From positions 28,322 to 92,321 of the IMG/VR virus record IMGVR_UViG_3300042691_044682: 64,000 nucleotides of DNA; one strand, written 5' to 3'. The DNA is from a virus. The notes beneath the pieces were generated by a model that saw only the letters and a program-made list of their open reading frames with translations, ran no database searches and had not been told where the DNA came from. Positions 257 to 14,415 of this stretch are shown piece by piece. The first letter of the stretch is position 1. Each line of letters begins with the position of its first letter. Made by a program: the position numbers and the translations under genes.

Positions 257-263
257 CCCCTGA

Positions 264-359
264 CCAAGCGCCCCCGGCTTCGGCCGGGGGCAGTCCCCAC
301 CCGCCGGATCGCCCGGCGGGTCCGTCGAGCCCGCCGGATCGCGGGCGAAGGGACACCCG
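264..359 (+). promoter_or_regulatory. two-hairpin intergenic element, copy 1
   Basis: The first hairpin pairs 270-278 with 283-291 around a TTCG loop, and a second pairs 300-307 with 313-320. The gene-proximal stem pairs 329-334 (GCCCGC) with 341-346 (GCGGGC). The motif CCGTCGAG comes just before this stem and GAAGGGACACC just after it, and the next gene starts at 360. See copies 2-12 for the same plan. Confidence 0.7.
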
Positions 360-521
360 ATGAACACCACCATCACCGTCCTGCAGGCCCTCGGCACCGC
401 CGGCGGCCTGCTCTTCCTGCTGAAGGTCGGCCTGGTCCTCGGAGAAGACATCTCCGAGTGGCTGCACCGCCGCCGCGCCGCCAGCCGCGCCATCATCACC
501 TACGATTCCCGGAGGCGCTGA
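360..521 (+). CDS. small single-pass membrane protein
   Basis: This 53-residue protein starts at an ATG 3-4 nt after GGGACACC, the Shine-Dalgarno end of the intergenic element. Residues about 7-27 form one hydrophobic segment (LQALGTAGGLLFLLKVGLVL), followed by a basic C-terminal tail rich in Arg and Ala. I recognise no family. The stop overlaps the next start as TGATG, so the pair is probably translationally coupled. A role at the inner membrane is inferred from topology only. Confidence 0.55.
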   Translation: MNTTITVLQALGTAGGLLFLLKVGLVLGEDISEWLHRRRAASRAIITYDSRRR

Positions 522-775
522 TGGTCCTGGGCTGGCTCGCCAGCGTCGCGGGCGCCTGCGCCCGCATGACGCTCACCCGGCCGGATCAGTGGTACCACCC
601 GAGCAACGAGCCGCCCGACACCTCGCGCGGCGTCTGGCTCCAGGGCCCCAGAGGGCTGTCCGCCTTCTGCCTGCCCGAGGACGCCTGCGCCTCGATCGTG
701 TCGGTGGTCTCGCCCACCGGGTCCATGATCCACCAGGAACGGCACATCGCCGACCTGGCCAACCAGCAGACCTGA
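521..775 (+). CDS. hypothetical protein, 84 aa
   Basis: The ATG at 521 shares bases with the stop of the preceding small membrane protein, which supports this start. The N-terminus (MVLGWLASVAGACARMTL) could be a weak signal or membrane segment. The rest contains two cysteines (AFCLPEDACA) and no motif I recognise. The next two-hairpin element begins ten bases after the stop. Confidence 0.5.
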   Translation: MVLGWLASVAGACARMTLTRPDQWYHPSNEPPDTSRGVWLQGPRGLSAFCLPEDACASIVSVVSPTGSMIHQERHIADLANQQT

Positions 776-784
776 CCGATGAGC

Positions 785-873
785 CATGGCCCGCCCAGCG
801 GGCCATGCGCTAACGGAACGCCGCACCCCGCCGGCACCGTCCTTCGAGACGCGGGGTCATGGAGACATCCCCC
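785..873 (+). promoter_or_regulatory. two-hairpin intergenic element, copy 2
   Basis: Hairpin A pairs 785-794 with 798-807 (10 bp, CCA loop). Hairpin B pairs 826-831 (CCCCGC) with 851-856 (GCGGGG), with an inner GG/CC pair (833-834 with 841-842) and a 3' bulge TTCGAGAC. GGAGAC at 861-866 is the Shine-Dalgarno sequence for the ATG at 874. Confidence 0.7.
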
Positions 874-1650
874 ATGCCCAACCACGTCACCAGCAAGATC
901 ACCGTCTCCGGCCCCGCCGAGGACGTCGCCGCCTTCAAGGCGCTGATGATCCGCGAGGAGCCGACGCTCTACGGCCAGTTCCACGCTGATCCCGCGCTGC
1001 GGGGCCAGCCGACGGGCGAAACCGAGACGATCTTTGACTTCGGCCGCATCATCCCCCGCCCCGAGATTCTCGAGCGGACGGAGGAGAGCGGCGATTCCGC
1101 CCTCGGGCTCTTTGCCCTCGGCGTGGAGAATTCGGAGACCACTTTCGGCTTCCCCGCCCCGAATCCGCTCACCTATCCGTGGGTGAAGGATCTCGGCATC
1201 GAGACGCGCGAGCAGATGCTCGCATGGCTCGAGAAGGAGCGGCCCGAGGCCATCGCGGCGGCCAAGACCGCCATCGAGGCCAAGAAGCTGACGGGGCACA
1301 CAAGCTGGTACCCCTGGTCCATCGCCAACTGGGGCACGAAGTGGAACGCCTACTCGTTCCAGCTTCACGAGGAAGCGCCGGGACGGCTCGTGTACACGCA
1401 CGACACCGCCTGGTCCTTCCCCGAGCCCGTCTACGACGCGCTCTCCGAGCGCTTCCCCACCCTCCGGATCTGCATCGCGTGCTTCGACGAATGCAGCTGC
1501 TTTGCCGGCCGCGGGGCTTACAACGCCGGGCCCGACGACCAGCCCTTCGAAATCGTCGACGCGACGGACAGCATCTACGAGGAGGTCTATGGCCACCCGC
1601 CCGAGCGCTTCGACGACGAAGAGCCCGAGGCGGGGCCGGCCACCGCCTGA
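874..1650 (+). CDS. Api92/DUF1281-like protein (YubB-type ferredoxin-like fold)
   Basis: The 258-residue protein begins MPNHVTSKITVSG, the usual opening of Api92-like plasmid and phage proteins. It carries the central signature NWGTKWNAY near residue 145 and a conserved Trp/Phe-rich stretch after it (HDTAWSFPEPVYDAL). Members of this family are common on conjugative plasmids and phages, but their biochemical role is not established to my knowledge. The ATG at 874 is preferred over an in-frame ATG at 859 because the 859 ATG lies inside the Shine-Dalgarno stretch. The C-terminus is acidic. It lies between two-hairpin elements, like its neighbours. Confidence 0.75.
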   Translation: MPNHVTSKITVSGPAEDVAAFKALMIREEPTLYGQFHADPALRGQPTGETETIFDFGRIIPRPEILERTEESGDSALGLFALGVENSETTFGFPAPNPLTYPWVKDLGIETREQMLAWLEKERPEAIAAAKTAIEAKKLTGHTSWYPWSIANWGTKWNAYSFQLHEEAPGRLVYTHDTAWSFPEPVYDALSERFPTLRICIACFDECSCFAGRGAYNAGPDDQPFEIVDATDSIYEEVYGHPPERFDDEEPEAGPATA

Positions 1651-1748
1651 CCTGCGCCCCCGGCTTCGGCCGGGGGCGTTCGTCCCTGTCGGCCCGTCCT
1701 GGGCCGGCCCGTCGAGCCCCGCCGGATCGCGGGGCGAAGGGACACCAC
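1651..1748 (+). promoter_or_regulatory. two-hairpin intergenic element, copy 3
   Basis: Hairpin A pairs 1656-1664 with 1669-1677 around TTCG, almost identical to copy 1. Hairpin B pairs 1716-1722 (GCCCCGC) with 1729-1735 (GCGGGGC). As in copy 1 the CCCGTCGAG motif lies on the 5' side. GAAGGGACACC then leads to the ATG at 1749. Confidence 0.7.
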
Positions 1749-2087
1749 ATGCCCCGCTTCCACGTCACCATCGAGCGCAAGCGCGCCGAGTACCTGACCG
1801 TGCGCGTCACGGCCGAGAACGAGGAGGAGGCCCGCAACCTCGCGCTCAAGCGCGACGGCGAGGGCCGCTACGACCTCCGCGACTGGGACGCCGGCGACGT
1901 GATCGAGGATTCGTCCGTGGTCACGCACGTCGAGCTCCCGAACTACGAGGAGCTCGCCGTGGAACTCGGCTTCGTCCTCGTCCAGAGCGCTGACAAGCAC
2001 GGCGACGAGGAGCACCTCTGGGAAAGCCCCAACGGGGTGGACCTCTATCGCACCGCCCGCGAGGCGGTGGAGAGCGCGAGCGCATGA
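1749..2087 (+). CDS. hypothetical protein, 112 aa
   Basis: This acidic protein begins MPRFHVTIERKRAEYLTVRVTAENEEEA, a beta-strand/helix opening that resembles small ferredoxin-fold proteins of mobile elements. No catalytic motif is visible. The start is fixed by the preceding two-hairpin element. The stop overlaps the next start (ATGA at 2084), so the two genes are probably co-translated. Confidence 0.6.
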   Translation: MPRFHVTIERKRAEYLTVRVTAENEEEARNLALKRDGEGRYDLRDWDAGDVIEDSSVVTHVELPNYEELAVELGFVLVQSADKHGDEEHLWESPNGVDLYRTAREAVESASA

Positions 2088-2317
2088 TCGGCTGGCACCC
2101 CTGCGAATGGATGCCCGCCATCGGGCGCTCCGCCAAGCGCCGCGCCATCGCCTGGTCCTGCCAGACCGATGCGCGGCTGCGGGTGCGCCACTGCGGCCAT
2201 CCGACCGCGCTCCGCCCCTACTACGTCGAGATCGACGGGACGTCGCAGCTCCACGAGCTCGGCACCTTCCGCCTTCTCGACGAGGCCCAGGCCGCCGCCA
2301 TGCGCGCGGTCGGCTGA
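2084..2317 (+). CDS. hypothetical protein, 77 aa
   Basis: The protein overlaps its upstream neighbour by an ATGA junction. It contains three Cys and two His residues (WHPCEW, SCQTD, RHCGHP), so a structural metal site is possible. I do not recognise a family. A GC-rich hairpin with a short T-run follows at 2324 and closes this small operon. Confidence 0.55.
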   Translation: MIGWHPCEWMPAIGRSAKRRAIAWSCQTDARLRVRHCGHPTALRPYYVEIDGTSQLHELGTFRLLDEAQAAAMRAVG

Positions 2318-2323
2318 CCGAAC

Positions 2324-2354
2324 CGCCCCGCTGGCTCCGGCCGGCGGGGCGTTT
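2324..2354 (+). terminator. Rho-independent terminator
   Basis: CGCCCCGC at 2324-2331 pairs with GCGGGGCG at 2344-2351, with a short inner CCGG/CCGG pairing possible, and is followed by TTTCTCG. It ends the 1749-2317 gene pair before the non-coding RNA region. Confidence 0.65.
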
Positions 2355-2432
2355 CTCGTGGCACCTTCATCGATTGCCCCGGCGCCTGACCCTCCGGGGT
2401 TCAGGAATTGTGCATCGGCCGAACCCGCCGCC

Positions 2433-2462
2433 TTGTTTATTCGTGATCCGTAACCATATAAG
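2433..2462 (+). promoter_or_regulatory. sigma70-type promoter of the structured RNA
   Basis: TTGTTT at 2433-2438 and TATAAG at 2457-2462 are separated by 18 bp. The stretch is markedly AT-richer than its surroundings. The predicted start is near 2469, just before the first hairpin of the candidate RNA. Confidence 0.6.
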
Positions 2463-2468
2463 CTTCAC

Positions 2469-3097
2469 GAGGGCAGCCCAGCCGGGCTGGTACCCTGCTC
2501 CCCCATTCAGCAACGTCAGTTTCGGGGGTGAGCAAAGGCCCGCCGCTTCTGCGCTGCGCCGTTTGGGCCGGCGCGCCGGCCGGGCAGTCCTCGAGGATCC
2601 ATCCTTCATTCCCGCGTCCCCTCCTCGTGAGGGGCCAGACCGCGAAGACCAGCCGCGCCGGGAGGCGCGGGGGAACGGGATCCGGCACGCTGCCCGCACG
2701 GCAGCGCTGCCGCCGAGCCTGCCGCGAGTGATGCCGCGGCGGGAGGAATCGGCCCACGCATCCGACCATTCTCCCCGCTGCTTCAGAGCCATGGGGTCTG
2801 GCCTGCTACGATATTCCCGAACGCCGCCCTTCGAGACGGCGCCCCCGAGGCAAGCTCCGCCGATCGGCGCTGACCAGCGCCACCGGGCGGAAAGCGCCGG
2901 CACGGTATGCCGGCCGGCTCGCCCGACGGGGTATTGGACCTGGAGCCCCGGCCGCAAGGCCGGCCCCCTGCTGAAGCGCATGGGGGGCAGTAGGACCAAT
3001 GGAACGCAAAGGTACCGCCGAACGACGCGCCTCCAGCGCGGCGGCCACCATGTGCAGAGAGAAACCCCCCACCGGCACGGTCCGGTGGGGGGTTTCG
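2469..3097 (+). ncRNA. candidate large structured non-coding RNA (about 630 nt)
   Basis: No credible protein gene lies here, yet the + strand is packed with helices. Examples are 2478-2482/2486-2490, 2618-2623/2629-2634, 2653-2659/2664-2670 with a GGGA tetraloop, 2689-2694/2700-2705, and 2741-2752 with 2762-2775 (bulged). Further along are 2866-2871/2876-2881, 2896-2901/2909-2914, and 2948-2953/2958-2963 with a GCAA tetraloop. A long-range helix pairs 2933-2941 with 2992-3000 (one A-A mismatch), and a three-way 3' element spans 3011-3049. Both tetraloops are GNRA only on the + strand, which fixes the orientation. A promoter stands at 2433 and a 14-bp terminator at 3062. Size, phage location and structure recall the GOLLD and ROOL classes of long phage-associated RNAs, but I cannot assign it to either; it may be a new class. 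Confidence 0.65.
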
Positions 3098-3098
3098 T
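3062..3098. terminator. strong bidirectional terminator
   Basis: A perfect 14-bp stem pairs 3062-3075 with 3082-3095 (AAACCCCCCACCGG arm), with T-rich sequence on both sides. It ends the structured RNA on the + strand. On the - strand it ends the gene that stops at 3103. Confidence 0.8.
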
Positions 3099-3102
3099 CG
3101 TT

Positions 3103-3894
3103 TCAGGGCGTCATCGCCGGCATGAGCTGCAGCTGGTCGGCGAGCAGGTCGAGCGCCTTGGGCACGCCCGCGAAGCGCGCCCGCCACTCGGCCTGGCGCC
3201 GCGGCAGGTCGGCCTGCACCCGCGCGCAGTGCGCCCGCCAGGCGCGCAGGTCGCTCTCGTGCGCCTCGGCCAGCCGCGCCAGGCGCCGCCCATACTCCTC
3301 CGCGCTCTCGTCGTGCCGCTGCGGCGGCGGCTCGCGCTCCGGCGGCGCCGGCGGCAGGCCCGGATAGGGCGCCACCTCAAGCTCGAACAGCACCAAGTCC
3401 AGCAACACGCCCAGCACCGGCCAGCTCAGCCGCCCGGCCAGGAGCGTGATGACCCGCCGTGCGCGCGTCACCCGCGGCGGCTCGAGCGCCTCATGGTTCC
3501 GGCCCGGCGCGCCGACGTCGTAGCGCCCCGACCAGCGCCGCTGCACGCCCGCCCGGGTGGCGTACTCGCGCAGGTCCGCCGCGGCCTGCAGGCGCCGGCG
3601 CAGCACGTCGCCCGTGTCGCCGAGCGCGCCACCAATCAGCAGCACCTCGATCGGACCGGGCAGCGCGGCATAGGCGGGGCCGAGGAGGGCGTAGATCTTG
3701 TCGCGGGCCAGCTGCAGGCCGCCGCGCTGGCGTTGCCGCTCCGGGGTGCCGCGATCGGCGCCCCATTTCTGCAGGATCAGGCCGGTGTCACGGTCCCGGT
3801 AGACCTCGACCTGCTCGCGCCGCCGGGTCGCCTCATGGCGAGTTCCCTTGGCCAGCCGCTTGAACCTGGACTTCCACCGCTTCGCCAACCGCAT
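3103..3894 (-). CDS. repressor-linked hypothetical protein, 263 aa
   Basis: This gene sits directly downstream of the CI-like repressor on the same strand, so it is probably expressed in the lysogen. The start is ATG 3894 with GGAGG four bases upstream; a GTG at 3918 is possible. The N-terminus is strongly basic, residues about 55-100 look globular, and a hydrophobic patch near residues 150-175 (RVITLLAGRLSWPVLGVLLDLVLFELEV) could be a membrane or buried helix. The C-terminal third is Arg/Glu/Ala-rich and likely coiled. I recognise no family. Position suggests a lysogenic-conversion or immunity role, but this is inference only. Confidence 0.6.
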   Translation of the reverse strand: MRLAKRWKSRFKRLAKGTRHEATRRREQVEVYRDRDTGLILQKWGADRGTPERQRQRGGLQLARDKIYALLGPAYAALPGPIEVLLIGGALGDTGDVLRRRLQAAADLREYATRAGVQRRWSGRYDVGAPGRNHEALEPPRVTRARRVITLLAGRLSWPVLGVLLDLVLFELEVAPYPGLPPAPPEREPPPQRHDESAEEYGRRLARLAEAHESDLRAWRAHCARVQADLPRRQAEWRARFAGVPKALDLLADQLQLMPAMTP

Positions 3895-3949
3895 CGCGCC
3901 TCCGCACAGGCGCCACACTTCTATGTGGTCCGGGCGAGGCTAGGCAAGG

Positions 3950-4681
3950 CTATACGTCGTCGGCCAGCAGCACCATGAGCGCGACCCGCCCGCGGATCTG
4001 GAAACTGTCGCCATCCACGCGCCAGACCTCGCCGCGATAGGGCCACGGCAGCTCGACCCGAACGCGCTGCATCGTGCCCGAATTGCGGAACACGAGAACC
4101 GCGCGCGCCGCCTCCCCCTCGCCCTCCACCGCCACGCTGCGGACGGTGACCTCATGGCGCCCCTCGCGGATCCGGTGCACGAGCACCAGGTCGCCATCGC
4201 GCAGCGGGCGGGTCATCGAAGCGAAGGCCTGCACGCCGATGTAGCTGCCGGCAGGGTAGATGGCGTTCGCATGGCCATCGAGCAGAACCGCCGCCTCGTC
4301 GGCCGCAAGGCCGGGCGGCAGCGCCAGGTGCTGCGGCGGGGCGATGTCGGCCTCATAGGTCGGCCGCCACATGCCGTCGGCCGCCGCAACCCGGACCGGC
4401 ACGGTCGCCGCCTTCACGCCGGTCGCCGGCGTCTCGCCGATGATCTCGGTCACCGTGGCGCCGGGGATTGCGCGCGCCAGCCGCTCGAGCGTCTCCTGGC
4501 TCAGCGTCTTCGAGTGGCCGTTCATGAAGTTGTAGATGGCATTGGCCGAGCGCAGGCCGGCCGCGCGCGCCCAGTCCGCCGCACGGAGGTCGTGCCGCTG
4601 CATGAAGGCCTCGAGGGCGCCGCGGCGGCGTCGGTACAGCCGATCGCCGCCCCGAGGCCCGTCTAATGGCTGCGTCATCAT
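3950..4681 (-). CDS. CI-like phage repressor with degenerate S24 domain
   Basis: The 243-residue protein has an N-terminal helix-turn-helix (about residues 20-75, RAADWARAAGLRSANAIYNF). The C-terminal half follows the S24/LexA peptidase layout (DGDLVLVHR, YPAGS). The usual GDSM motif reads GHAN and the lysine region reads TVRS, so the catalytic Ser and Lys appear replaced by Ala and Arg. It faces the Cro-like gene across a 41-bp space containing the palindrome CACAGAGTGCTGTG. It should be the lysogeny repressor. Loss of self-cleavage would mean induction by another route. Start: tandem ATGs at 4681/4678. Confidence 0.8.
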   Translation of the reverse strand: MMTQPLDGPRGGDRLYRRRRGALEAFMQRHDLRAADWARAAGLRSANAIYNFMNGHSKTLSQETLERLARAIPGATVTEIIGETPATGVKAATVPVRVAAADGMWRPTYEADIAPPQHLALPPGLAADEAAVLLDGHANAIYPAGSYIGVQAFASMTRPLRDGDLVLVHRIREGRHEVTVRSVAVEGEGEAARAVLVFRNSGTMQRVRVELPWPYRGEVWRVDGDSFQIRGRVALMVLLADDV

Positions 4682-4692
4682 AGGACTAGCAT

Positions 4693-4706
4693 CACAGAGT
4701 GCTGTG
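4693..4706. promoter_or_regulatory. repressor operator (CACAG-N4-CTGTG), switch region
   Basis: The perfect palindrome CACAGAGTGCTGTG lies between the divergent repressor and Cro-like genes. CATATT at 4710-4715 is a plausible -10 for the rightward promoter. That would place transcription start near 4722, making the cro message nearly leaderless. Confidence 0.7.
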
Positions 4707-4722
4707 GTTCATATTCCGCCCC

Positions 4723-4977
4723 ATGAATGGCACCCGCATCGAGGCGCTGCTCGACGAGCTCGAGAAGGCAGCTCGCAAGAAGCGCCTGACGAAGAAGCAG
4801 CTCGCCGAGATGGTCGGCCTGCATCAGAACACCCTCCGGAACTTCCGTGGCTACCGCGCTCGGGAGAAGCCCGACGACTGTCGCTGGACCCCATCGGTCG
4901 AGACCATCGCCCGACTGGAGCCCGTCCTGCTGCCACGCCGGGCACGCGACTCCGCGAAACCTCAGGTTTTCACATAA
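4723..4977 (+). CDS. Cro-like HTH regulator
   Basis: The 84-residue protein diverges from the repressor gene. Residues about 20-45 (KKRLTKKQLAEMVGLHQNTLRNF) form a clear helix-turn-helix. The ATG at 4723 is preferred over a GTG at 4699, which lies inside the operator palindrome. No strong Shine-Dalgarno sequence precedes it, consistent with a leaderless message. Its position makes it the likely Cro counterpart that starts the lytic programme. Confidence 0.75.
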   Translation: MNGTRIEALLDELEKAARKKRLTKKQLAEMVGLHQNTLRNFRGYRAREKPDDCRWTPSVETIARLEPVLLPRRARDSAKPQVFT

Positions 4978-4981
4978 CCCG

Positions 4982-5431
4982 GTGTTCGCGTCCTCTGTCA
5001 AGCGAAAGCGCCCCGCCTCACCGGAGCACAAGCTCCAGGCGTCGCTGGTGGCCTGGCATGAACAGTGCGTGGCGCGGAACAGCTGCGAGCTCATCGCCAT
5101 CCCGAATGGCGGCTTCCGCCGCAAGTCCGTGGCCGGGAAGATGAAGGCCGAGGGTCAGCGCAAGGGCGCCACCGACCTCGTCCTCGCCCTGCCGGAAGGC
5201 CGCAGCCTGTGGATCGAGGTGAAGCTCGACGACACCCCCACCACCAAGCGCACGGACCTCTCGGCCGAGCAGCGCGCGTTCCGGACGAAGATCCTATCCC
5301 TGGGGCATTCTCACCGGGTGGTGCGCTCGATCGAGCAGTACCGCGCCGTGATCGAGGAGTTCGGCGTCCCGCACCTCGAGCGCGCGCCGCTCAGGCGAGC
5401 GGGCGAGCCTCGGCGGTCAGCTCCCGAATGA
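4982..5431 (+). CDS. VRR-NUC domain nuclease
   Basis: The 149-residue protein matches the stand-alone VRR-NUC fold of the PD-(D/E)XK group: PNGGFRR, then KGATDLVLAL with the metal-binding Asp, then LWIEVK with the Glu and Lys. Phage members of this family are thought to act on branched DNA during recombination or packaging. The start is probably GTG 4982, five bases after the Cro-like stop, giving co-transcription from the same promoter. Its end overlaps the convergent gene 5391-5738 by about 40 bp. Confidence 0.8.
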   Translation: MFASSVKRKRPASPEHKLQASLVAWHEQCVARNSCELIAIPNGGFRRKSVAGKMKAEGQRKGATDLVLALPEGRSLWIEVKLDDTPTTKRTDLSAEQRAFRTKILSLGHSHRVVRSIEQYRAVIEEFGVPHLERAPLRRAGEPRRSAPE

Positions 5432-5738
5432 CGCGGCTGGCCTGGCGGAAGCTCTTCGCCGGCAGCTGACGCAGCTTCTCGACGAGCTCCCGGATCGCCT
5501 GGTCGCGCTCATGGGCCGGCGCCGCTGGCTCCGCGCCCGTCAGCCCCAGCGCCTCGTCGGCCGCCAGCCCCATCGCCTGGCACGCCCGCGCGAGCTGCTC
5601 GGCCGTGATGCGGTCCTCGTCGCGCTCGAACTTCGACCACTGCACGCCGCTCACGCCGATGACGGCGCCCGCCGCCGTCTGCGTCCACCCCAGCTCGACG
5701 CGCCGCCGGCGCAGCGCCGCCGCTATGCGCTCCCGCAT
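5391..5738 (-). CDS. XRE-family HTH regulator
   Basis: The 115-residue protein has a textbook XRE helix-turn-helix at residues about 2-60 (LGWTQTAAGAVIGVSGVQWSKFERD) and a charged C-terminal helix. It is the last gene of the leftward replication operon and is convergent with the VRR-NUC gene. A GTG at 5753 is an alternative start. A near-match to the phage operator lies just upstream at 5768. It is a third regulator next to the repressor and the Cro-like protein and may tune the early operon. Confidence 0.75.
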   Translation of the reverse strand: MRERIAAALRRRRVELGWTQTAAGAVIGVSGVQWSKFERDEDRITAEQLARACQAMGLAADEALGLTGAEPAAPAHERDQAIRELVEKLRQLPAKSFRQASRVIRELTAEARPLA

Positions 5739-5767
5739 GATCCCCCGTCCCACCGATCCGCCATCAT

Positions 5768-5781
5768 CACACGAAGCTGTG
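5768..5781. promoter_or_regulatory. operator-like palindrome upstream of XRE gene
   Basis: CACACGAAGCTGTG matches CACAG-N4-CTGTG at nine of ten defined positions. It sits in the 45-bp space between the replication partner gene and the XRE gene. The overlapping inverted repeat GAAGC-TGT-GCTTC could also be a short hairpin. Confidence 0.5.
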
Positions 5782-5783
5782 CT

Positions 5784-6338
5784 TCATGCCACTGCCTCGG
5801 CCAGCCGCGCCTCGATCTGCGCCACCCGCAGCCGCGCGGCCCCGGCCGCCGGCCCGCCGCTCGCCGCCAGCTTGCGGTAGTACTCGAGCAGCGCGCCGTC
5901 GCTGAGGTGGCCGGACGGTCGCGCCACCTTCGGCCCGGCCGCCTCCCGCTGGCGGGCCGGCGCGATGACCTCCTCCGCGTAGCGCGCCCGGAAGGCGGCC
6001 GCGATCGCGGCGCGCGCCTCCGGCGCCAGGGCATCGACGGGGTCGCGCGGCGGCGCCAGCAGGGGCGCGCCGCCGGCGTTCGCGATGGCGCGGCTGTGCG
6101 CCTGCGCGCGCCAGTCCTCGGCCACCAGGGCGCTGATTTCCTCGACCGAGGGCCAGAAGGCGAAGCGGCGGCAGGCCTCGCGCTGGAGCCGCTCGCTCAG
6201 CGCGGCCGTGGGGACGCTGAGCGCGAAGGCCAGCGCCCCGGCCCGGGCCTTGGCGTCGGCGGCGGTCGGCGGGTTCCGCACGGCGGCGGCGAGCGGGCGC
6301 AGGAAGCGCAGCCAGTCCTCGATGGCGGCGGGGGTCAT
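5784..6338 (-). CDS. probable replication accessory protein
   Basis: The 184-residue Ala/Arg-rich protein starts at an ATGA overlap with the DUF1376-like gene, so the two are translationally coupled. It resembles in size and position the helicase-loader or lambda P-like partner that follows an initiator gene in many phages. The segment RRFAFWPSVEEISALV is typical of such small phage replication partners, but no diagnostic motif is visible. The assignment rests on context. Confidence 0.5.
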   Translation of the reverse strand: MTPAAIEDWLRFLRPLAAAVRNPPTAADAKARAGALAFALSVPTAALSERLQREACRRFAFWPSVEEISALVAEDWRAQAHSRAIANAGGAPLLAPPRDPVDALAPEARAAIAAAFRARYAEEVIAPARQREAAGPKVARPSGHLSDGALLEYYRKLAASGGPAAGAARLRVAQIEARLAEAVA

Positions 6339-7465: not shown

Positions 7466-7717
7466 ACGCCCCTCCGCACTTCCTGTGATCCTGAGCGATG
7501 CCGCAGCGCGCCCATTCGGCACGCGTGCGCATCAACCACACGGCAGGCTAATCCGCGATATGGTTCGGACGCAAGGCGAGTCTTTTCTCCTATCGTTCTG
7601 TGGTTGTCGGATTGATTTCCTTCCGTAGCATCCCCATATCCACCACATCACCCGTCGCTCGCGCCGGACGCACCGCGGATCCGCCGCGGCGCCGCCGCCG
7701 CCAGCCGAGGCACCATC
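7466..7717. promoter_or_regulatory. divergent control region between replication and accessory operons
   Basis: There is no gene in this 252-bp stretch. A partial operator (CTATCGTTCTGTG, 7590-7602) lies mid-region. A + strand promoter may use TTGTCG at about 7605 with TAGCAT at about 7627. The right part contains a CCGCGG/CCGCGG hairpin ahead of the gene at 7718. The - strand promoter for the replication operon must also be here, but I cannot place it. Confidence 0.4.
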
Positions 7718-8260
7718 ATGCCGAAAGCGACCATCACGATCGGCGGCCCCATGAATTCCGAGGGGTTCGCCATGCTTGCCGCCGCCATGGCCGACGACGG
7801 CCTGCCGACGCGCGATCCCGACGACGACGCGGGCCCGGGCCAGCAGCCCACCCTCACCGCCGCCGGCACCGCCGACCCGGCCTTCTACCGCCAGGCGCTC
7901 ATCGACGCCCAGGCCGCCAACGAGCCCATCTCGCTCGGCACCTGGGACAACGACGACGACGTCACCGACGCCGGCAAGTACACCCTGCGCTGCGCCGACC
8001 AGCTCGCCCTGGTCGTGCGCACCTACCAGCCCGGCGGCTTCGATCCCGACTATGGCGAAGACCGCGACGCCTACATCGCCATCTCAGGACGCCTCGCCCC
8101 CGTGCGCGGCTCCGCCTGGATCGGCAGCGACGGCGAGCCGATGCTCCCCATCGCGCGCGCCGACATCGCGTCCTCGGACGCATTCAGGGCCCGCTACGAC
8201 GACGCCAGGAAAGCCTGGGCCGTCATCGACGCCAAGGTCCCGCCGATCGACATCCTCTGA
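7718..8260 (+). CDS. hypothetical protein, 180 aa
   Basis: This acidic protein of unknown family is the first gene of the second accessory series. It has a low-complexity Asp-rich segment (RDPDDDAGPG, residues about 31-42). A globular part with conserved-looking Tyr/Gly residues follows (DAGKYTLRCADQLALVVRTYQPGGFD). The start is ATG 7718 after GAGGCACC. It is followed by a two-hairpin element. Confidence 0.6.
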   Translation: MPKATITIGGPMNSEGFAMLAAAMADDGLPTRDPDDDAGPGQQPTLTAAGTADPAFYRQALIDAQAANEPISLGTWDNDDDVTDAGKYTLRCADQLALVVRTYQPGGFDPDYGEDRDAYIAISGRLAPVRGSAWIGSDGEPMLPIARADIASSDAFRARYDDARKAWAVIDAKVPPIDIL

Positions 8261-8262
8261 CC

Positions 8263-8343
8263 GCAAGCACGGCGCCCCTCCCGGGGCGCCGGCGCTTGCC
8301 GCGGCACTCCCGCCGCGGCCCGTTGAGCAAGAGGAACCACCCC
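8263..8343 (+). promoter_or_regulatory. two-hairpin intergenic element, copy 4 (divergent)
   Basis: Hairpin A pairs 8271-8278 with 8283-8290 inside an outer GCAAGC/GCTTGC pairing. Hairpin B pairs 8298-8304 with 8313-8319. The sequence after it reads CCGTTGAGCAAGAGGAACC before the ATG at 8344. It fits the plan less well than the other copies. Confidence 0.5.
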
Positions 8344-8901
8344 ATGCCCGACTGCTTCGTGTGCCCGCTTGGCGGGAACGCGAAAGCCATGTCCTTCGCC
8401 GAGTTCTTCCGGCGCTTCCCCCACCGCCTCGTCCCCGAGGCATGGGAGGCGCTCGCAATCGCCGCCATGACCGACCAGATCATCGAGTTCCGCGACGATC
8501 GGCACGACCCCATGAAGGCCGTGTCGACCAACTTCGTCACCACGAACCCGACGGTGCCCGACGGCGCGCCGTACTGGTCGATATCCGCCAGGACGCTGAA
8601 GCTCGCCACCGCGCGCACGCTGCTTCACCAGCCGCAAGCGCGCGTCGTGACGCCGACGAAGCTCCTCACCGACGATCGTGGTCCGAAGACCACCTATCGC
8701 CTCGGCCTGCGTGCCTCGGTGACCGTGGACTCAGACGTCCTCGTCGACGCGCATTCGCCCGACGACGCGATCGCGCTCTTCGAAGCGTCCCCCGATCGCT
8801 ACCACGGCGAAGCCATGGACGTGCTCGAGAACTCCTGGGACTGGCACGAGCTGACGCCCATGCAATGGATCGTCGTCTCCGCCATCCCCACGGACGACTG
8901 A
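8344..8901 (+). CDS. hypothetical protein, 185 aa
   Basis: The protein starts MPDCFVCPLGGNAKAMSF, where CFVC could be a metal or redox motif, followed by an alpha/beta body. A late segment (DVLVDAHSPDDAIALFEASPDRY) is typical of small mobile-element proteins. No family is recognised. The start is set by the upstream element. The gene lies in the same orientation and spacing as its neighbours, so it is probably transcribed with them. Confidence 0.6.
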   Translation: MPDCFVCPLGGNAKAMSFAEFFRRFPHRLVPEAWEALAIAAMTDQIIEFRDDRHDPMKAVSTNFVTTNPTVPDGAPYWSISARTLKLATARTLLHQPQARVVTPTKLLTDDRGPKTTYRLGLRASVTVDSDVLVDAHSPDDAIALFEASPDRYHGEAMDVLENSWDWHELTPMQWIVVSAIPTDD

Positions 8902-8902
8902 C

Positions 8903-8999
8903 ATGCCGCATGCCGCCGGCGCCCCGTGCGCCGGCGTGCAAGCCGGCCCGCCCGCTGCCGGGCCTGCCCGTCGTGGCACTAGCAGCGCAGGAGACAGCC
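8903..8999 (+). promoter_or_regulatory. two-hairpin intergenic element, copy 5
   Basis: Hairpin A pairs 8914-8922 with 8928-8936. Hairpin B pairs 8953-8958 (CGCTGC) with 8982-8987 (GCAGCG), with an inner CGG/CCG pair and the bulge TCGTGGCACTA, followed by AGGAGACAGCC. The outer stem differs in sequence from the other copies yet keeps pairing. Confidence 0.65.
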
Positions 9000-9644
9000 A
9001 TGAGCTTCCCCTTGCCGAGCGTGCGCTCCGTCTCCGGAGTGGCGCTCAAGGCGGCACTCGATGTGATCGCGACCGTGGCCCGCTGGCGGGACGCCCTGCC
9101 GAACGACCCCGACACGATCCGCGACGCCGCCATCAAGGCTCTGGCCGCGCTCGAGCTCATCCGCGAAGCCCCCACCGCCACCGCGGCGCGGGGCTTCAAG
9201 ACCGACGCCCTTTCCGAAGACGAGATCCTCGCCCTCTACGCCGCCCGCAACGCCTGGTTTCGAGCCGGCTGGCGCGCAATCGACCGGGCGATGGCCGTCT
9301 ACGGCCCCGACTGGGGGAAGGTGCCCGGCAACCGTGTCTATGCCACGGTGCCGCGCAACCTGCGCTTCCGCTACAACCGGCACACCCGCAAGGTGACCCT
9401 CGATGCCGCCCAGCAGATCATCGCCGCCCCGGTCTTCTGGGTCGACGGCGACCTGCCGGCCGAGGTGACGATCGGCGGAGTGGTGCCGTCCCCCTGGCAA
9501 CCCGACCTCGCCAGGCTCTCCCGCGAGGGCGAGATCTGGTCGAGCGGGAAGTGGGCGAAGACCTTCGAGATGAGGGTCGACTACGAGCTCTGGCGCGCGA
9601 AGTACCCGGACCAGTACCGGAACACTTCGGCCACCAGGTCATAG
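9000..9644 (+). CDS. hypothetical protein, 214 aa
   Basis: The 214-residue protein is helical in the first third (ALKAALDVIATVARWRDAL). It then has an aromatic-rich segment (RNAWFRAGWRAIDRAMAVYGPDWGK) and a basic stretch (RFRYNRHTRKVTL). I do not recognise a family. The start follows AGGAGACAGCC of the intergenic element. Confidence 0.6.
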   Translation: MSFPLPSVRSVSGVALKAALDVIATVARWRDALPNDPDTIRDAAIKALAALELIREAPTATAARGFKTDALSEDEILALYAARNAWFRAGWRAIDRAMAVYGPDWGKVPGNRVYATVPRNLRFRYNRHTRKVTLDAAQQIIAAPVFWVDGDLPAEVTIGGVVPSPWQPDLARLSREGEIWSSGKWAKTFEMRVDYELWRAKYPDQYRNTSATRS

Positions 9645-9649
9645 CCGAT

Positions 9650-9741
9650 GGGCCATGCCACCCCTCGCGGGAGGCATGCGCCAACGGACCGCCGCGCCCC
9701 CCCGGCACCGTCCTCCGAGGCGGGGGGCCATGGAGACCACC
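9650..9741 (+). promoter_or_regulatory. two-hairpin intergenic element, copy 6
   Basis: Hairpin A pairs CATGCC at 9654-9659 with GGCATG at 9673-9678. Hairpin B pairs 9697-9702 (CCCCCC) with 9722-9727 (GGGGGG), inner GG/CC at 9704-9705/9712-9713, with bulge TCCGAGGC. GGAGAC at 9732 precedes the ATG at 9742. Confidence 0.7.
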
Positions 9742-10479
9742 ATGACCGACTTCACCCTCGCCGGCTCCGATGTCGGCGTGCGGCGCGTCGACTTCGCCGG
9801 GCTCGTCGCTGAGCTCGGCGACGACGCCGCGCTGGACGCCATCGCCGCCACCGAAAATGGCGGCGTGCATCGCGCGCCCGGCACGCCGGTTCGCCTGGTC
9901 CGCCGCTTCAAGAGCGGCGACGAGGCGCTCGGCTTCGACTACTTCGCCCGCAAGGCCGGCGTCTCCCCCGAGGAGCGCGCCACGCCGGAGGGCGAGCCCG
10001 CCGACGACGACAAAAACGACGAGACCAACCGCAACGCTCCCCTCGAAGGGGAGGCGCTCGCACCCTCGTATCAGCACCTCTACACGACGTTCCAGCAGGA
10101 CCCTGAGTCGGTCCAGCTGAAGCGCGTGACCGTGCGCTTCTCCCTAACGGTGCCCGTCAGCCTGGCTGTGCGGGCGCCCGACGAGAAGGCCGCGCGCGAG
10201 GTGGTTCGCCGCTACATCACCGGCGAGGAATTCGACACCGACACGGCCATCCTGATGAGCCCGGTGGACATCCTCGCCGCCGCGGCGCGCCGCCTGGAGA
10301 ATGCCGAGAACCTGGCCGAGGCCGAATGGTCGGCCTCCACCTTGCGCGTCGAAGACGTGACCAAGGAGGAGGTCGAGAAGCTGCTGCGGCGCCTGCTCGC
10401 GGAGGAACTCCGCGCCTACCAGGAGACCGTCGTCAGCAACGTCGACGCACTCGCCGCCATCTTCGAGCGCGGTGGTTGA
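9742..10479 (+). CDS. hypothetical protein, 245 aa
   Basis: The 245-residue acidic protein has a disordered middle (residues about 76-100, rich in Glu, Asp, Asn). A helical C-terminal third follows (EVEKLLRRLLAEELRAYQETVVSNVDAL). A segment RVTVRFSLTVPVSLAVRAPDEKAAREVV looks like a small beta-alpha domain. No known family is recognised. The start is fixed by the GGAGACCACC Shine-Dalgarno sequence. Confidence 0.6.
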   Translation: MTDFTLAGSDVGVRRVDFAGLVAELGDDAALDAIAATENGGVHRAPGTPVRLVRRFKSGDEALGFDYFARKAGVSPEERATPEGEPADDDKNDETNRNAPLEGEALAPSYQHLYTTFQQDPESVQLKRVTVRFSLTVPVSLAVRAPDEKAAREVVRRYITGEEFDTDTAILMSPVDILAAAARRLENAENLAEAEWSASTLRVEDVTKEEVEKLLRRLLAEELRAYQETVVSNVDALAAIFERGG

Positions 10480-10569
10480 TCGCATGCCCGCCCGGCCCCG
10501 CGTCGGGCGGGACATGCGATGCCTCGCCCCCGGGCATCGCCCGTCGCGAATGGGGGCCGGAGACACCAT
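10479..10569 (+). promoter_or_regulatory. two-hairpin intergenic element, copy 7 (best formed)
   Basis: Hairpin A is a 16-bp perfect stem, 10479-10494 with 10504-10511 plus 10513-10520 and one bulged base. Hairpin B pairs GCCCCC 10526-10531 with GGGGGC 10552-10557, inner GGGC/GCCC at 10532-10535/10539-10542, with bulge GTCGCGAAT. GGAGAC at 10559 leads to ATG 10570. Confidence 0.75.
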
Positions 10570-11187
10570 ATGTCCTCCATCCAGATGCCGCCCCCCAATC
10601 GCGGGGACCGGCGCCGCCTCGAGCGCAAGCAGCGCAAGAGGAACCGGAAGTATCCCATCTTCGGAATGATGGCCCACGGGACCTCCCGTGACCACGAAGA
10701 GCTCGCCCGCACCCCCGAACAGTCCGCCGATCACCACATGAAGATGATGAAGGACCTGTTCGAGAAGGCTGGCGCCAACTCGACGCCGCACCTGATCACA
10801 TTCGGCCCGTCGGGCTCGATGTTCATCCTCGGCGACCCCGAGGAACACGACAACGCGACCTCGGTCGCGCCTTCGCAAGCGAAGGTGGTCGCCTGGACGG
10901 CGGCCTGGGCCAAGCGCCGCAACGCCGACAGGTACGTCCTCGGCGTCGGTGCCTGGGTCATGCCGAACGCCCTGGCGAACGACCGGCAGCCGCGCCGTTG
11001 CATCCTCGTCGTCGTGGACGATCGCGAAGCCGGCCTAACCATCAAGGCCAGCGAGGTGGTGCACGATCCGAAGACGGACTCCATCGTCGGGTTCAACGAC
11101 CACGCCCCGATCGACCTGGGGATCCAGAAGGTCCTCTTCCGCAACCTGCTGCCGGCCAAGTCGGTCGGCGCAGAACTCGCCGCATGA
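10570..11187 (+). CDS. hypothetical protein, 205 aa
   Basis: The N-terminus is strongly basic (RGDRRRLERKQRKRNRKY). An alpha/beta body follows with a central hydrophobic strand (RCILVVVDD) and AWTAAWAKRRNADRYVLGVGAWVM. The basic start suggests nucleic-acid contact, but no family is recognised. The start is set by copy 7 of the intergenic element. Confidence 0.6.
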   Translation: MSSIQMPPPNRGDRRRLERKQRKRNRKYPIFGMMAHGTSRDHEELARTPEQSADHHMKMMKDLFEKAGANSTPHLITFGPSGSMFILGDPEEHDNATSVAPSQAKVVAWTAAWAKRRNADRYVLGVGAWVMPNALANDRQPRRCILVVVDDREAGLTIKASEVVHDPKTDSIVGFNDHAPIDLGIQKVLFRNLLPAKSVGAELAA

Positions 11188-11191
11188 GAGT

Positions 11192-11280
11192 CCGGCGCCC
11201 CTTCCCGGGGCGCCGGCGCTAGCGGCGTCTCCCCCCGGGCGCCGCCCTTCGATCACGGGGGATCATGGAGAACCACTACC
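11192..11280 (+). promoter_or_regulatory. two-hairpin intergenic element, copy 8
   Basis: Hairpin A pairs 11192-11201 with 11207-11216. Hairpin B pairs CCCCC 11232-11236 with GGGGG 11257-11261, inner GGGC/GCCC at 11237-11240/11244-11247, with bulge TTCGATCAC. GGAG at 11267 precedes ATG 11281. Confidence 0.7.
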
Positions 11281-11580
11281 ATGACGACCAACGCTGCGCG
11301 CCGCGACCCGGCGCGCATCGAGCAGGCCATCGAGTGCCTGCGCCACGCCCGCCGCCTCCTCCGCAAGGCGGGCTGCAAGCGCGCCGCCCAGCGCGTCCGC
11401 GGCGCCCTCAAGAGCGCCGAGGGCGCGCACCGGCACGCCGAGAACCTGGTGGTCCGGCACGGCGACTACGGCCCGCCGGCGCCCGCCATCACCACCGACC
11501 TACTGCAGCCGCCGCCCGACCTCGCCCAGAAGTGGGAGGCCGAGGCGCGCCGGCTGACCGCGGCGGCGGGAGCCTCGTGA
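11281..11580 (+). CDS. hypothetical helical protein, 99 aa
   Basis: This basic, Ala/Arg-rich helical protein (ECLRHARRLLRKAGCKRAAQRVRGALKSAEG) may bind nucleic acid. No family is recognised. Its stop overlaps the next start (TGATG), unlike most neighbours, which are separated by the two-hairpin element. The two genes therefore act as one unit. Confidence 0.55.
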   Translation: MTTNAARRDPARIEQAIECLRHARRLLRKAGCKRAAQRVRGALKSAEGAHRHAENLVVRHGDYGPPAPAITTDLLQPPPDLAQKWEAEARRLTAAAGAS

Positions 11581-11876
11581 TGAACACGCCGCTCCCGCCG
11601 CCGGTCGGCTTCGTCGTCTACCGCAGCGCCGCGAAAGCGGCGGTGCAGTGGAGCCGCACCGTGAAGCTCGCCGAGACCAAGACCTTCGTCGAGGCCTGCA
11701 TCAAGGCCGTCGCGCACTCCAAGAAGATCAACGGGGAGACCCGCGTCTTCCCGGTCGGTGCCGACCCCCGCAATGGCGCAAATGCCTGGGCGGTGGCCTG
11801 GTACGGCGAGACCATCCACCTGCGGCACGGCCCGTCGATGCGCGACATCATCGCGCGCGCCGCGGCCGCGACCTGA
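11580..11876 (+). CDS. hypothetical protein, 98 aa
   Basis: The protein is translationally coupled to its upstream neighbour by TGATG. It has a beta-rich start (PVGFVVYRSAAKAAVQWSRTVKLAETKTF) and a Gly/Asn-containing turn region. I do not recognise a family. Confidence 0.55.
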   Translation: MNTPLPPPVGFVVYRSAAKAAVQWSRTVKLAETKTFVEACIKAVAHSKKINGETRVFPVGADPRNGANAWAVAWYGETIHLRHGPSMRDIIARAAAAT

Positions 11877-11884
11877 TCGTCTGC

Positions 11885-11969
11885 CACCGCCGGCTTCGGC
11901 CGGCGGTGCGCAAGCGATGCCACGCCCCCGGGCATTGCCCGTCGCGAACAGGGGGCCATGGAGACCACC
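11885..11969 (+). promoter_or_regulatory. two-hairpin intergenic element, copy 9
   Basis: Hairpin A pairs 11885-11894 with 11899-11908 around TTCG. Hairpin B pairs GCCCCC 11924-11929 with GGGGGC 11951-11956, inner GGGC/GCCC, with bulge GTCGCGAACA. GGAGAC at 11960 leads to ATG 11970. It is nearly superimposable on copy 7. Confidence 0.75.
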
Positions 11970-12296
11970 ATGACCATCTCACTCGAATTCCAGCGCGTCG
12001 TGATGCTCAGCACCGGGCACATCACGAAGGACGACAACGAGCGCCTGCACGAAATGGCGCTCGCCGACCTTGAGGACGGCGCGCAGCCGTTCCTGGTCGC
12101 GTCCTATTATGGGGGCTTCCTCATCCGAGTGCTCGGGGAGCCCATCTTCCCCGAAACGCTTCATCAGCGCGAGAATGCCGGCCTGTCCGATGCCTTCCTT
12201 GCCCTGATGAAGTTGGCGGCCGAGCACAAGGCGGACTGGCTTCGCCTCGACACGGACGGCCTCACCTCCGATGAGTTGCCCACTTTCGAGTGGTGA
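11970..12296 (+). CDS. small protein, possibly DUF5983-like
   Basis: The 108-residue protein has the opening SLEFQRVVMLSTGHITKDDNERLHEMA. This resembles the STGHI/STAHIT motif of DUF5983-type small proteins from plasmids and phages; the match is from memory and not certain. The rest is beta-rich and ends in an acidic tail. The function of that family is not known to me. Confidence 0.55.
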   Translation: MTISLEFQRVVMLSTGHITKDDNERLHEMALADLEDGAQPFLVASYYGGFLIRVLGEPIFPETLHQRENAGLSDAFLALMKLAAEHKADWLRLDTDGLTSDELPTFEW

Positions 12297-12400
12297 CCAA
12301 GCCGCATGCCGCCACCGGCCCGTCCGGTGGTGCGCATGCCTTCCGTCCCGCCCGCGCGGGAGGCCCGTCGTGGCCATAGCGGGCGAGGAGACCTCCCCCC
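12297..12400 (+). promoter_or_regulatory. two-hairpin intergenic element, copy 10
   Basis: Hairpin A pairs GCATGC 12304-12309 with 12334-12339 and CCACCGG 12312-12318 with CCGGTGG 12324-12330. Hairpin B pairs GCCCGC 12350-12355 with GCGGGC 12379-12384, inner GGG/CCC, with bulge GTCGTGGCCATA. GAGGAGACC precedes ATG 12401. Confidence 0.7.
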
Positions 12401-13792
12401 ATGGGGAAGAACCCTTTTCCTCCGGCGACGCCAGACGACCTGGCGCGCGTCGCGCCCATGCTCAGCTTCATGTCGAGCATGGAAGGCAGCTCGCGCTTCG
12501 CATCGGCGCTCCTCGAGGCCTTCAACCTCGTGAAGCTCGATGCGGAGACGCGCGCCTGGCTCGAAGGCCCCGTGGTGGTGCATTCCACCTCGACCTGGCC
12601 GATCGAGCACGGCGATACCCCCCGCTGGATGCTGGACCGGATCCCGGCCGAGAGGCTGGAGATCGTCATGGGCCAGCATCCGGGGATGATCGTCGGCCCG
12701 TGCGAGATCGCAGCGGTGATGCAAAGCGCCATCCATACGGCGCCCCTCACCATGCAAGGCAATGGCCTGTATCTCTGGGCCACGGCCCGCGCGCTGCAGC
12801 ATCGCACGCACGAAGACGGCACCCCGAATCCGCTGTCGGTGGAGGAAGCCGAGCGCATGCTCGGATCCCGGCTCCCACAGGACGCCGAGATCCTCAGCGC
12901 GGCCGGCATGTACCACCAGGACTACCGCTCCCTCTGCGCCGAGATCCGGCGCAAGGTGGCGGCAGGCGGGGGCAAGCGCATCGCGCCTGGTCTCAGGCCG
13001 CGGCCTGCTCCCCTGACGGCGCCCATCGCGGCGCCGCCCAAGACCGTCCCGGTCCCTTCCGAGGTCGCGGCCGTCCTGGCCACGTCGACCTGCGAGGGGA
13101 ACGTCCTCAAGCTCCCGCAGCAGCTCGATCGCCCGACCTACGAGGCGACCGATGCGGTGCTGAAGGCGCTGGGAGGGAAGTGGAATCGCCACAAGGGCGG
13201 GCACGTCTTCGCCGAAGACCCCGCCCCGCTGATCGCCAATGCCCTTGGCGACGGCGCGGTCATCGACCGCAAGAAGACCTTCGAGATCTTCGAGACGCCG
13301 CCCGAGGTGGCCGCGCGCATGGTGGGGATGCTCCCCGCCAGCGAGCGGCTCCTCGAGCCATCGGCCGGTACGGGCCGACTGGTGAAGGCAGCACTCCTCG
13401 CGGGCACGGCGCAGTCCATCCACGCCATCGAGGTTGACCCGCGCAACGTGGGCGAGCTGCGAGCGATCGCAGATCCCCGCGTCGCGGTGATCCATGGCGA
13501 CTTCCTTTCCATCGCCGGAGACACCACATATGACGCCTGCGCGATGAACCCGCCGTTCCGAAACGGCGCCGACATTGCGCATGTGCGTCGTGCCTACGAG
13601 CTGCTTCGGCCAGGCGGCACCCTCGTCGCCATCATGAGCGAGGGCGCGTTCCACCAGCAGCAGCGCCGGGCCAAGGAGTTCCGCTCCTGGCTCCGCGACC
13701 TCAAGACCGAGACGGAGAAACTGCCCGCCGGGACCTTCCGCCAGGAAGGCACCGACGTGGTTACGCGGCTCATCCAGATCCGGAAGCCGTGA
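12401..13792 (+). CDS. N6-adenine-type DNA methyltransferase with novel N-terminal domain
   Basis: In the C-terminal half of this 463-residue protein, LEPSAGTGRLVKAALL (about residues 318-333) is the SAM-binding motif and CAMNPPF (about 378-384) is the NPPY/F catalytic motif of amino-methyltransferases. A long N-terminal region (about residues 1-210) has no motif I recognise. An acidic segment (LPQQLDRPTYEATDAVLKALGGKWNRHKGGHVF) links them and matches regions found in plasmid and phage methyltransferases. It probably protects phage DNA from host restriction or alters gene control. No restriction partner is seen. Confidence 0.75.
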   Translation: MGKNPFPPATPDDLARVAPMLSFMSSMEGSSRFASALLEAFNLVKLDAETRAWLEGPVVVHSTSTWPIEHGDTPRWMLDRIPAERLEIVMGQHPGMIVGPCEIAAVMQSAIHTAPLTMQGNGLYLWATARALQHRTHEDGTPNPLSVEEAERMLGSRLPQDAEILSAAGMYHQDYRSLCAEIRRKVAAGGGKRIAPGLRPRPAPLTAPIAAPPKTVPVPSEVAAVLATSTCEGNVLKLPQQLDRPTYEATDAVLKALGGKWNRHKGGHVFAEDPAPLIANALGDGAVIDRKKTFEIFETPPEVAARMVGMLPASERLLEPSAGTGRLVKAALLAGTAQSIHAIEVDPRNVGELRAIADPRVAVIHGDFLSIAGDTTYDACAMNPPFRNGADIAHVRRAYELLRPGGTLVAIMSEGAFHQQQRRAKEFRSWLRDLKTETEKLPAGTFRQEGTDVVTRLIQIRKP

Positions 13793-13800
13793 TCGCATGC

Positions 13801-13885
13801 CGCCGCCTGGGCAACCGGGCGGCGCGCAAGCGTCTCAGCCGCCCCCCATGGGACGCCCGTCGTGAACGGGGGGAAGGAGATACCC
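13801..13885 (+). promoter_or_regulatory. two-hairpin intergenic element, copy 11
   Basis: Hairpin A pairs 13801-13807 with 13818-13824. Hairpin B pairs CCCCCC 13842-13847 with GGGGGG 13868-13873, inner GGG/CCC at 13850-13852/13856-13858, with bulge GTCGTGAAC. AAGGAGA precedes ATG 13886. Confidence 0.7.
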
Positions 13886-14014
13886 ATGATCGCTCAGCTG
13901 CTCGAACTCGTCGGGAAATTCATGCTGGCGATGGCGAACACGGTCGCCGCCTTGATGGTGGTGGTCGATATGATTCGCCGTCGCAGCGCCCCGGCGCAGG
14001 TCGGGAGCTACTGA
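13886..14014 (+). CDS. 42-residue membrane peptide
   Basis: This very short gene is supported by its two-hairpin leader and AAGGAGA Shine-Dalgarno sequence. Residues about 4-30 are hydrophobic (LLELVGKFMLAMANTVAALMVVVDMI), followed by a basic tail. It should be a single-pass inner-membrane peptide. No family is recognised. Confidence 0.5.
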   Translation: MIAQLLELVGKFMLAMANTVAALMVVVDMIRRRSAPAQVGSY

Positions 14015-14022
14015 CCGCGTGC

Positions 14023-14112
14023 CGCCGGCCTCCGCTCAGGGGGCCGGCGTGCAAGCCGGTCCGCGCCCCAGGGACCGGCCCTTCGAGGAAATGGGGCGAA
14101 GGAAGAGAGAGC
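14023..14112 (+). promoter_or_regulatory. two-hairpin intergenic element, copy 12
   Basis: Hairpin A pairs 14023-14030 with 14042-14049. Hairpin B pairs GCCCC 14065-14069 with GGGGC 14093-14097, inner GGG/CCC at 14071-14073/14079-14081, with bulge TTCGAGGAAAT. GAAGGAAGAGAG precedes ATG 14113. Confidence 0.7.
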
Positions 14113-14268: not shown

Positions 14269-14292
14269 CCACCGCACTGGCCCATCTGGGCG

Positions 14293-14326: not shown

Positions 14327-14328
14327 TG

Positions 14329-14357: not shown

Positions 14358-14415
14358 CCACATCGAGCCGCCTCCCCGGCGGCTCGACATTCTTGGACGT
14401 TTCCTCCCTAGACTC

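Follow-up and report, generated by a model that had tools for sequence, protein, structure and literature searches.

A repeated RNA leader stands at twelve gene boundaries, between positions 257 and 14113, of a 64,000-nucleotide stretch of phage DNA (hereafter the window; bases 28,322-92,321 of the 92,321-base IMG/VR record IMGVR_UViG_3300042691_044682), and its second structural element is, as read from the sequence, a covarying H-type pseudoknot beside the Shine-Dalgarno sequence (SD) of the downstream gene. The gene content of the record is that of a temperate siphovirus: it encodes a large terminase (PHROG 38), portal, tail tube, tape measure and lambda-like tail-tip protein J, an integrase (matches to a helix-turn-helix repressor are weak), RecT, an exonuclease VIII relative and a DUF1376-type replication protein. 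The closest named terminases share only 35-37% identity with that of this phage. A specific pattern located the leader in two further phages, IMGVR_UViG_3300016482_000089 (82.9 kb) and IMGVR_UViG_3300035683_000002 (100.7 kb), and the sample analysed here, three metagenomic phages with records of 92, 83 and 101 kb, holds about 62 copies in total.

The boundaries follow the common plan that the initial annotation had proposed. A hairpin (H1) comes first, immediately after the stop codon at all twelve window boundaries, and is followed by the second structure, a purine-rich SD and the start codon. The median distance from the stop codon to P1, the first helix of the second structure, is 32 nt, nearly all of it H1 (most boundaries; a few could not be called automatically), and H1 and the pseudoknot together occupy the entire intergenic space. 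At most boundaries H1 is bulged and lies directly beside the knot, with 0-5 nt free between H1 and P1. The second structure had been described as a nested, bulged stem; this was mistaken, P1 having been overlooked. P1 is formed by the bases on either side of a C-rich arm, and it is because this arm, held in the P1 loop, pairs outward with a G-rich arm near the SD, forming helix P2, that the structure is assigned to the H-type. The outer-stem pairs quoted by the annotation are borne out and are those of P2 (GCCCCC/GGGGGC, ACCCCGC/GCGGGGT, CGCTGC/GCAGCG, CGCCCGC/GCGGGCG), and the supposed asymmetric 3′ bulge, although indeed conserved in sequence, is the pseudoknot loop L3 (GCCCGUCGA). The structure does end at the SD, with the 3′ arm of P2 abutting it; a purine-rich SD is found at each boundary, but its tail varies (GGAGACACC, GAAGGGACACC, AGAGGAACC), and the exact SD nonamer alone shows no enrichment in the window. 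The copy at 10516-10557, as a worked example, reads GCGATGCC-tc-GCCCCCG-GGCATCGC-ccgtcgcgaa-TGGGGGC.

Both helices covary, and they cross. All four distal P1 pairs are present in 43 of 55 copies, compared with a mean of 8.0 and a maximum of 17 when the 3′ arms are dealt among copies (2000 shuffles) and a mean of 11.9 and a maximum of 23 when they are dealt within each phage; since the copies are partly related in sequence, these shuffle counts are not to be read as probabilities, and controls with slid partners point the same way, P1 pairing falling from 87% to 24-53% when the partner is displaced by 1-3 columns. Across four columns of a 58-row alignment, P1 contains 47 double-changed cells against 18 expected, and its covariation score of 0.424 (0.137 in shuffled alignments) was reached by none of 500 shuffles. 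P2 averages 6.11 bp in this phage compared with 5.28 bp, and at most 5.89 bp, in 1000 shuffles, which bears out the claim of covariation inside one genome and places the pairing in excess of controls; analysed jointly, P1 and P2 behave alike. The inner stem of the earlier model (GGGC/GCCC) pairs in 91% of cells yet shows no double change in 58 copies, and the nested bulged stem was rejected as the full structure on this comparison with the 47 double changes of the crossing P1.

The dimensions are those of a feasible H-type pseudoknot of about 50 nt. Among 49 fitted copies, P1 measures 6-11 bp (mostly 7-8) and P2 6-7 bp, while the loops L1, L2 and L3 are mostly 2-3, 0-1 and mostly 10-12 nt long, respectively; the end of P2 lies 11-16 nt from the start codon in 45 of them, typically 12-14 nt. 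Two crossing helices, compensatory changes in each of them and loops of workable length are thus all present. Within L3 (CCCGUCGA) the motif CCCGTCG is almost invariant across 58 copies from the three phages. A descriptor scan that included the linker motif returned 22 matches on the coding strand and one on the opposite strand, with about one per shuffled genome strand.

Of the twelve window copies, nine are clean pseudoknots; the others comprise two variants and one degenerate copy. All lie on the plus strand:

264..360 (+): copy 1, variant C; H1 ~270-291; P1 299-304/316-321; P2 309-315/342-348; extra hairpin GCCCGC/GCGGGC within L3; SD GAAGGGA; gene start 360
776..874 (+): copy 2, type B; H1; P1 813-823/832-840 (ACGG..GCCG/CGGC.CCGT); P2 825-831/851-857; gene 874-1650 (DUF1281_C)
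1651..1749 (+): copy 3, variant C; P1 1688-1694/1702-1708; weak P2 1695-1701/1730-1736 (G-U pairs); L3 hairpin; gene 1749-2087
8261..8344 (+): copy 4, degenerate; H1 and a strong hairpin CCGCGGC/GCCGCGG retained; linker CCCGTTGAG; crossing P2 not clear; gene 8344-8901
8902..9000 (+): copy 5; H1; P1 8945-8950/8959-8964; P2 8953-8958/8982-8987 (CGCTGC/GCAGCG); gene 9000-9644
9645..9742 (+): copy 6, type B; P1 9684-9694/9703-9711; P2 9696-9702/9722-9728; gene 9742-10479, of a family found in all three phages
10480..10570 (+): copy 7; H1; P1 10516-10523/10533-10540 (GCGATGCC/GGCATCGC); P2 10526-10532/10551-10557; gene 10570-11187, of a family found in all three phages
11188..11281 (+): copy 8; P1 11222-11229/11238-11245; P2 11232-11237/11256-11261; gene 11281-11580 (small arginine-rich protein)
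11877..11970 (+): copy 9; H1; P1 core GCGATGCC/GGCATTGC ~11914-11921/11931-11938; P2 11924-11929/11951-11956; gene 11970-12296 (DUF5983)
12297..12401 (+): copy 10; H1; P1 core GCCTTCCG/CGGGAGGC ~12338-12345/12357-12364; P2 12349-12355/12379-12385; gene 12401-13792 (DNA methyltransferase)
13793..13886 (+): copy 11; H1; P1 core GCGTCTCA/TGGGACGC ~13830-13837/13849-13856; P2 13842-13847/13868-13873; gene 13886-14014
14015..14113 (+): copy 12; H1; P1 14055-14062/14072-14079; P2 14064-14070/14092-14098; gene 14113-14268

Copy 1 has a near-identical counterpart upstream of the window (L003:13699-13765). These two copies and copy 3 are the variants that carry a hairpin within L3 (GCCCGCCGGATCGCGGGC or GCCCCGCCGGATCGCGGGGC), and because the 3′ arm of this hairpin overlaps P2, the two helices are mutually exclusive. 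Several copies (at 859, 9730, 11265 and 11958) contain an extra ATG, in-frame or out-of-frame, that overlaps the SD (CATGGAGACC); these are possible alternative starts a few codons upstream.

The array begins upstream of the window, where the same record contains 13 further copies, bringing this phage to about 25, which extend from 20.1 to 42.4 kb and share the orientation of the genes they precede. The terminases of the two other carriers are 69% (IMGVR_UViG_3300016482_000089) and 61% (IMGVR_UViG_3300035683_000002) identical to that of this phage, and other structural proteins are related as well. The result that the annotation had named as refuting it, neither further copies nor pairing beyond that of controls, was thus not obtained. 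A covariance model built on P2 gives 21, 18 and 22 matches in the three records, on the coding strand only and, in this phage, confined to a 22-kb block; most of these matches are training copies, which makes the count mainly a control for strand, and the model also adds new copies such as 47,234-47,300 of IMGVR_UViG_3300016482_000089. On the minus strand of that record, at 47,146-47,300, two tandem modules about 90 nt apart precede a single gene.

Beyond these phages the searches were negative. No Rfam 15 family reached its gathering threshold in the window, and 140 kb of related loci yielded one tRNA and nothing else; megablast of window positions 1-14400 and short-query blastn against named phages and plasmids were both empty. 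A pattern scan across GTDB (85,000 genomes) gave 65 scattered matches, not one of which stands before a properly placed SD and start codon, while a model search of 385 alphaproteobacterial genomes, shallow in that few candidates were scored per genome, gave none. A looser viral scan contributed only chance-like additions, including one in L098, and a search with the type-B pattern found nothing. Among 17 records of terminase relatives the pseudoknot was absent except for one weak match (E 0.06), and protein searches with two leader-bearing genes returned just the same two other phages. It is important to point out that the wide searches were anchored on the commonest P2 (GCCCCC/GGGGGC) and that relatives with other pairings could escape them; at this sensitivity, the leader is restricted to one gene block in three related phages.

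The genes that follow the leader are mostly unrelated, as had been noted, the 62 led genes falling into 51 clusters. Six gene families common to different phages keep the leader at 27-53% protein identity. The annotation had also raised the possibility that each unit is an exchangeable cassette, and this finds no support: the similarity between leaders of orthologous genes in different phages, 0.646, hardly differs from the 0.641 of pairs drawn at random between phages, whereas cassettes would be expected to carry their leaders along with their genes, and nothing resembling a mobility signature turned up. One led gene, at 11281..11580 on the plus strand, encodes a small arginine-rich protein (LRRARRLLRxAxAKRAA...SAEGAxRHA) that has a counterpart in each of the three phages, at about 52% identity, and is knot-led in all of them.

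The best explanation for these observations, and one that we would give an even chance of being right as a whole, is a leader that controls translation initiation. Each unit would be a gene-boundary module on a polycistronic early or accessory transcript, in which H1 closes off the upstream gene after its stop codon and the pseudoknot serves as the 5′ leader of the downstream gene, ending against the SD at the 5′ edge of the 30S site. That the leader acts in the mRNA, and on initiation, is the part that appears probable. Since the SD lies outside P2, such control would be steric, or exerted by recruitment beside the SD, rather than by burying it. A shared regulator had been proposed at the outset, and it stays plausible because L3 is near-invariant, the ribosome-access or RNA-binding factor itself being conjectural. 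That one common factor, be it an RNA-binding protein of phage or host or the ribosome itself, reads L3 and thereby makes some 20-25 unrelated genes a single post-transcriptional regulon is a somewhat bolder proposal, to which we would assign a little under an even chance.

Several observations weigh against control at initiation. The predicted accessibility of the SD is 0.50 compared with 0.45 for shuffled leaders, and since this gain is slight, folding energies do not imply an effect on initiation, and simple masking or unmasking of the SD is not the explanation; the idea that the leader works by exposing the SD is accordingly weak. Some genes in the array have no leader. The arginine-rich protein is a speculative candidate for the trans-acting factor.

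The main rival to a leader controlling initiation is a passive one, less probable in our judgement, in which H1 and the knot insulate or stabilise: they would isolate cistrons, keep the SD unpaired in a GC-rich genome, block readthrough or exonucleases and equalise initiation among genes without any dedicated regulator. The position of the SD outside P2, slightly more open than with shuffled leaders, the complete filling of the intergenic space and the unrelatedness of the led genes all agree with such a role, but on its own it explains neither a near-invariant, unpaired L3 in 58 copies from three phages nor the absence of the leader from other genes of the same phages. RNA processing ranks third and is unlikely. 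Here an RNase, of the RNase III type in H1 or an endonuclease of phage or host recognising the knot, would split the polycistron in the manner of T7 into units with a knot at the 5′ end and H1 at the 3′ end. H1 is, however, shorter than typical RNase III sites, the gap between H1 and P1 is just 0-5 nt, and PADLOC found no type III toxin-antitoxin nuclease (ToxN/AbiQ family) among the ten array proteins tested. What speaks for processing is the bulged H1 directly beside the knot at most boundaries, together with the precedent of pseudoknots processed by an endoribonuclease (ToxI; PMC3475682).

Two further readings are highly improbable. A small-molecule riboswitch, with the knot as an aptamer resembling SAM-II or preQ1, would account for an H-type fold that adjoins the SD and for conserved loop bases; yet there is no Rfam match, the led genes lack a common metabolic theme, and the SD, which lies within P2 in riboswitches of that type, is 3′ of P2 in the fitted copies. 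To our knowledge, some twenty aptamers in one phage would be unprecedented. A DNA-level repeat, either a cassette border or a protein-binding site with incidental RNA structure, would fit the many boundary copies in one block and is already disfavoured by the covariation of paired bases despite changing sequence, by the single orientation relative to the genes, by the constant spacing to the start codon and by the lack of any ortholog signal in the leaders.

Relatives of this phage have other leaders. Terminase relatives at 44-48% identity are devoid of the knot, and four large ones carry a different repeated leader at a similar position. Its form, read in three of these four and in IMGVR_UViG_3300036833_000307 from about 40 aligned copies, is a three-way junction: GCCUUUC, a hairpin, GGCAGAGAGC, a CUG-loop hairpin, GAAAGGC and the start codon. 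The carriers are:

IMGVR_UViG_3300027821_000007 (G005): three-way-junction leader, in L181 and L182
IMGVR_UViG_3300037231_000129 (G006): three-way-junction leader, in L187:7350-9834
IMGVR_UViG_3300036846_001176 (G010): three-way-junction leader, in L189 and L190
IMGVR_UViG_3300036833_000307: three-way-junction leader, in L208 and L210

Its two hairpins covary strongly, with double changes in 10 of the 15 predicted pairs, and the closing stem between CCUUUC and the SD (GAAAGG) averages 6.0 bp compared with 5.39 bp, and at most 5.79 bp, in 1000 shuffles; this leader would bury the SD in the closing stem. It has no Rfam match, and in a co-occurrence search that was not exhaustive no phage examined carried both leader types. 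That one assemblage of phages has two repeated leaders with no relation to each other speaks for a control function that extends over the whole phage. An extended and rather doubtful version of this idea is a dedicated post-transcriptional regulon in which one phage-encoded RNA-binding factor reads the knot before about 20 early genes, relatives have swapped the entire leader set for the SD-burying three-way junction, and each leader RNA, together with its cognate factor, evolves as a control system that serves a whole phage and can be exchanged for another.

Other repeats were seen in the relatives. A third leader, found within IMG/VR in one phage only, occurs in about nine copies:

IMGVR_UViG_3300047462_000185 (G011), 41.9-42.4 and 69.4-74.6 kb (-): CCTT, variable hairpin, GCGATCAGCCGGCGCTnnCCGGCAGAAAGG, start codon

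A small leader, GCCGGCGATCAAGCCGGCACTGATGAGGA, precedes the start codons at 59,459, 63,477, 64,744 and 71,981 of IMGVR_UViG_3300037231_000129, and pairing between AUCA in its loop and UGAU next to the SD is possible. At L181:11555-15320 of IMGVR_UViG_3300027821_000007 there are about 100 units of 37 nt, each made up of two 10-nt repeats in alternation and two spacers of 8-9 nt. TIGR arrays have this plan, but their usual 5-15 units are far fewer (PMC12045711); Pfam detected no Nop domain in six neighbouring proteins.

Phage regulons are usually viewed as transcriptional, and some 62 knots, together with a second, different repeated leader in relatives, suggest genome-wide control exerted at translation initiation. 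The same knotted fold before about 20 mostly unrelated genes per phage suggests one shared switch or docking site. Such internal replicates ease structure-function work, and the conserved loop offers a direct bait for the missing factor; GC-rich bacteria would also gain a modular leader part, and the start-associated sequences of mycobacteriophages, as yet unexplained, possibly a precedent.

Those sequences, the SAS and ESAS of cluster K mycobacteriophages, are the nearest precedent in layout. They occur in 11-19 copies per phage beside the start codons of non-structural genes, overlap the SD region and have a consensus that varies by subcluster (PMC3203893); their function remains unexplained (PMC3203893; PMC12699233). 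Whereas SAS is a 13-bp linear sequence and ESAS consists of 17-bp inverted repeats with little support for an RNA hairpin (PMC3203893), the leader described here has covarying RNA helices, a pseudoknot and unrelated sequence, the consensus of its copies differing from the GGGATAGGAGCCC-type SD repeat and its inverted repeats of 17 bp. In T7, the intergenic hairpins at operon gene boundaries are long RNase III stems without a pseudoknot at the SD; boundary hairpins are common to both systems, and the knot at the SD sets the present leader apart. A further pseudoknot, that of E. coli rpsO, overlaps the ribosome-binding site, unlike the knot here. It forms the translational operator for S15 (PMC3014915) and autoregulates one gene rather than many. 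ToxI likewise is a repeated short pseudoknot RNA, of 36 nt (PMC3475682), but its repeats are tandem antitoxins beside one toxin gene, whereas the present copies are scattered in front of many genes. In fold and position, the closest precedent is the gene 32 leader of T4 and T2, an H-type pseudoknot in a phage mRNA leader that is protein-bound in translational autoregulation and was called in 2010 possibly the only viral pseudoknot with such a role (PMC3014915). The gene 32 knot is a single copy with one target, 67 nt before the start codon, in contrast with about 25 copies, typically at 12-14 nt, in the present phage. Overall, the leader is, by its predicted structure, a new RNA family whose kind is recognisable and whose copy number is unusual.

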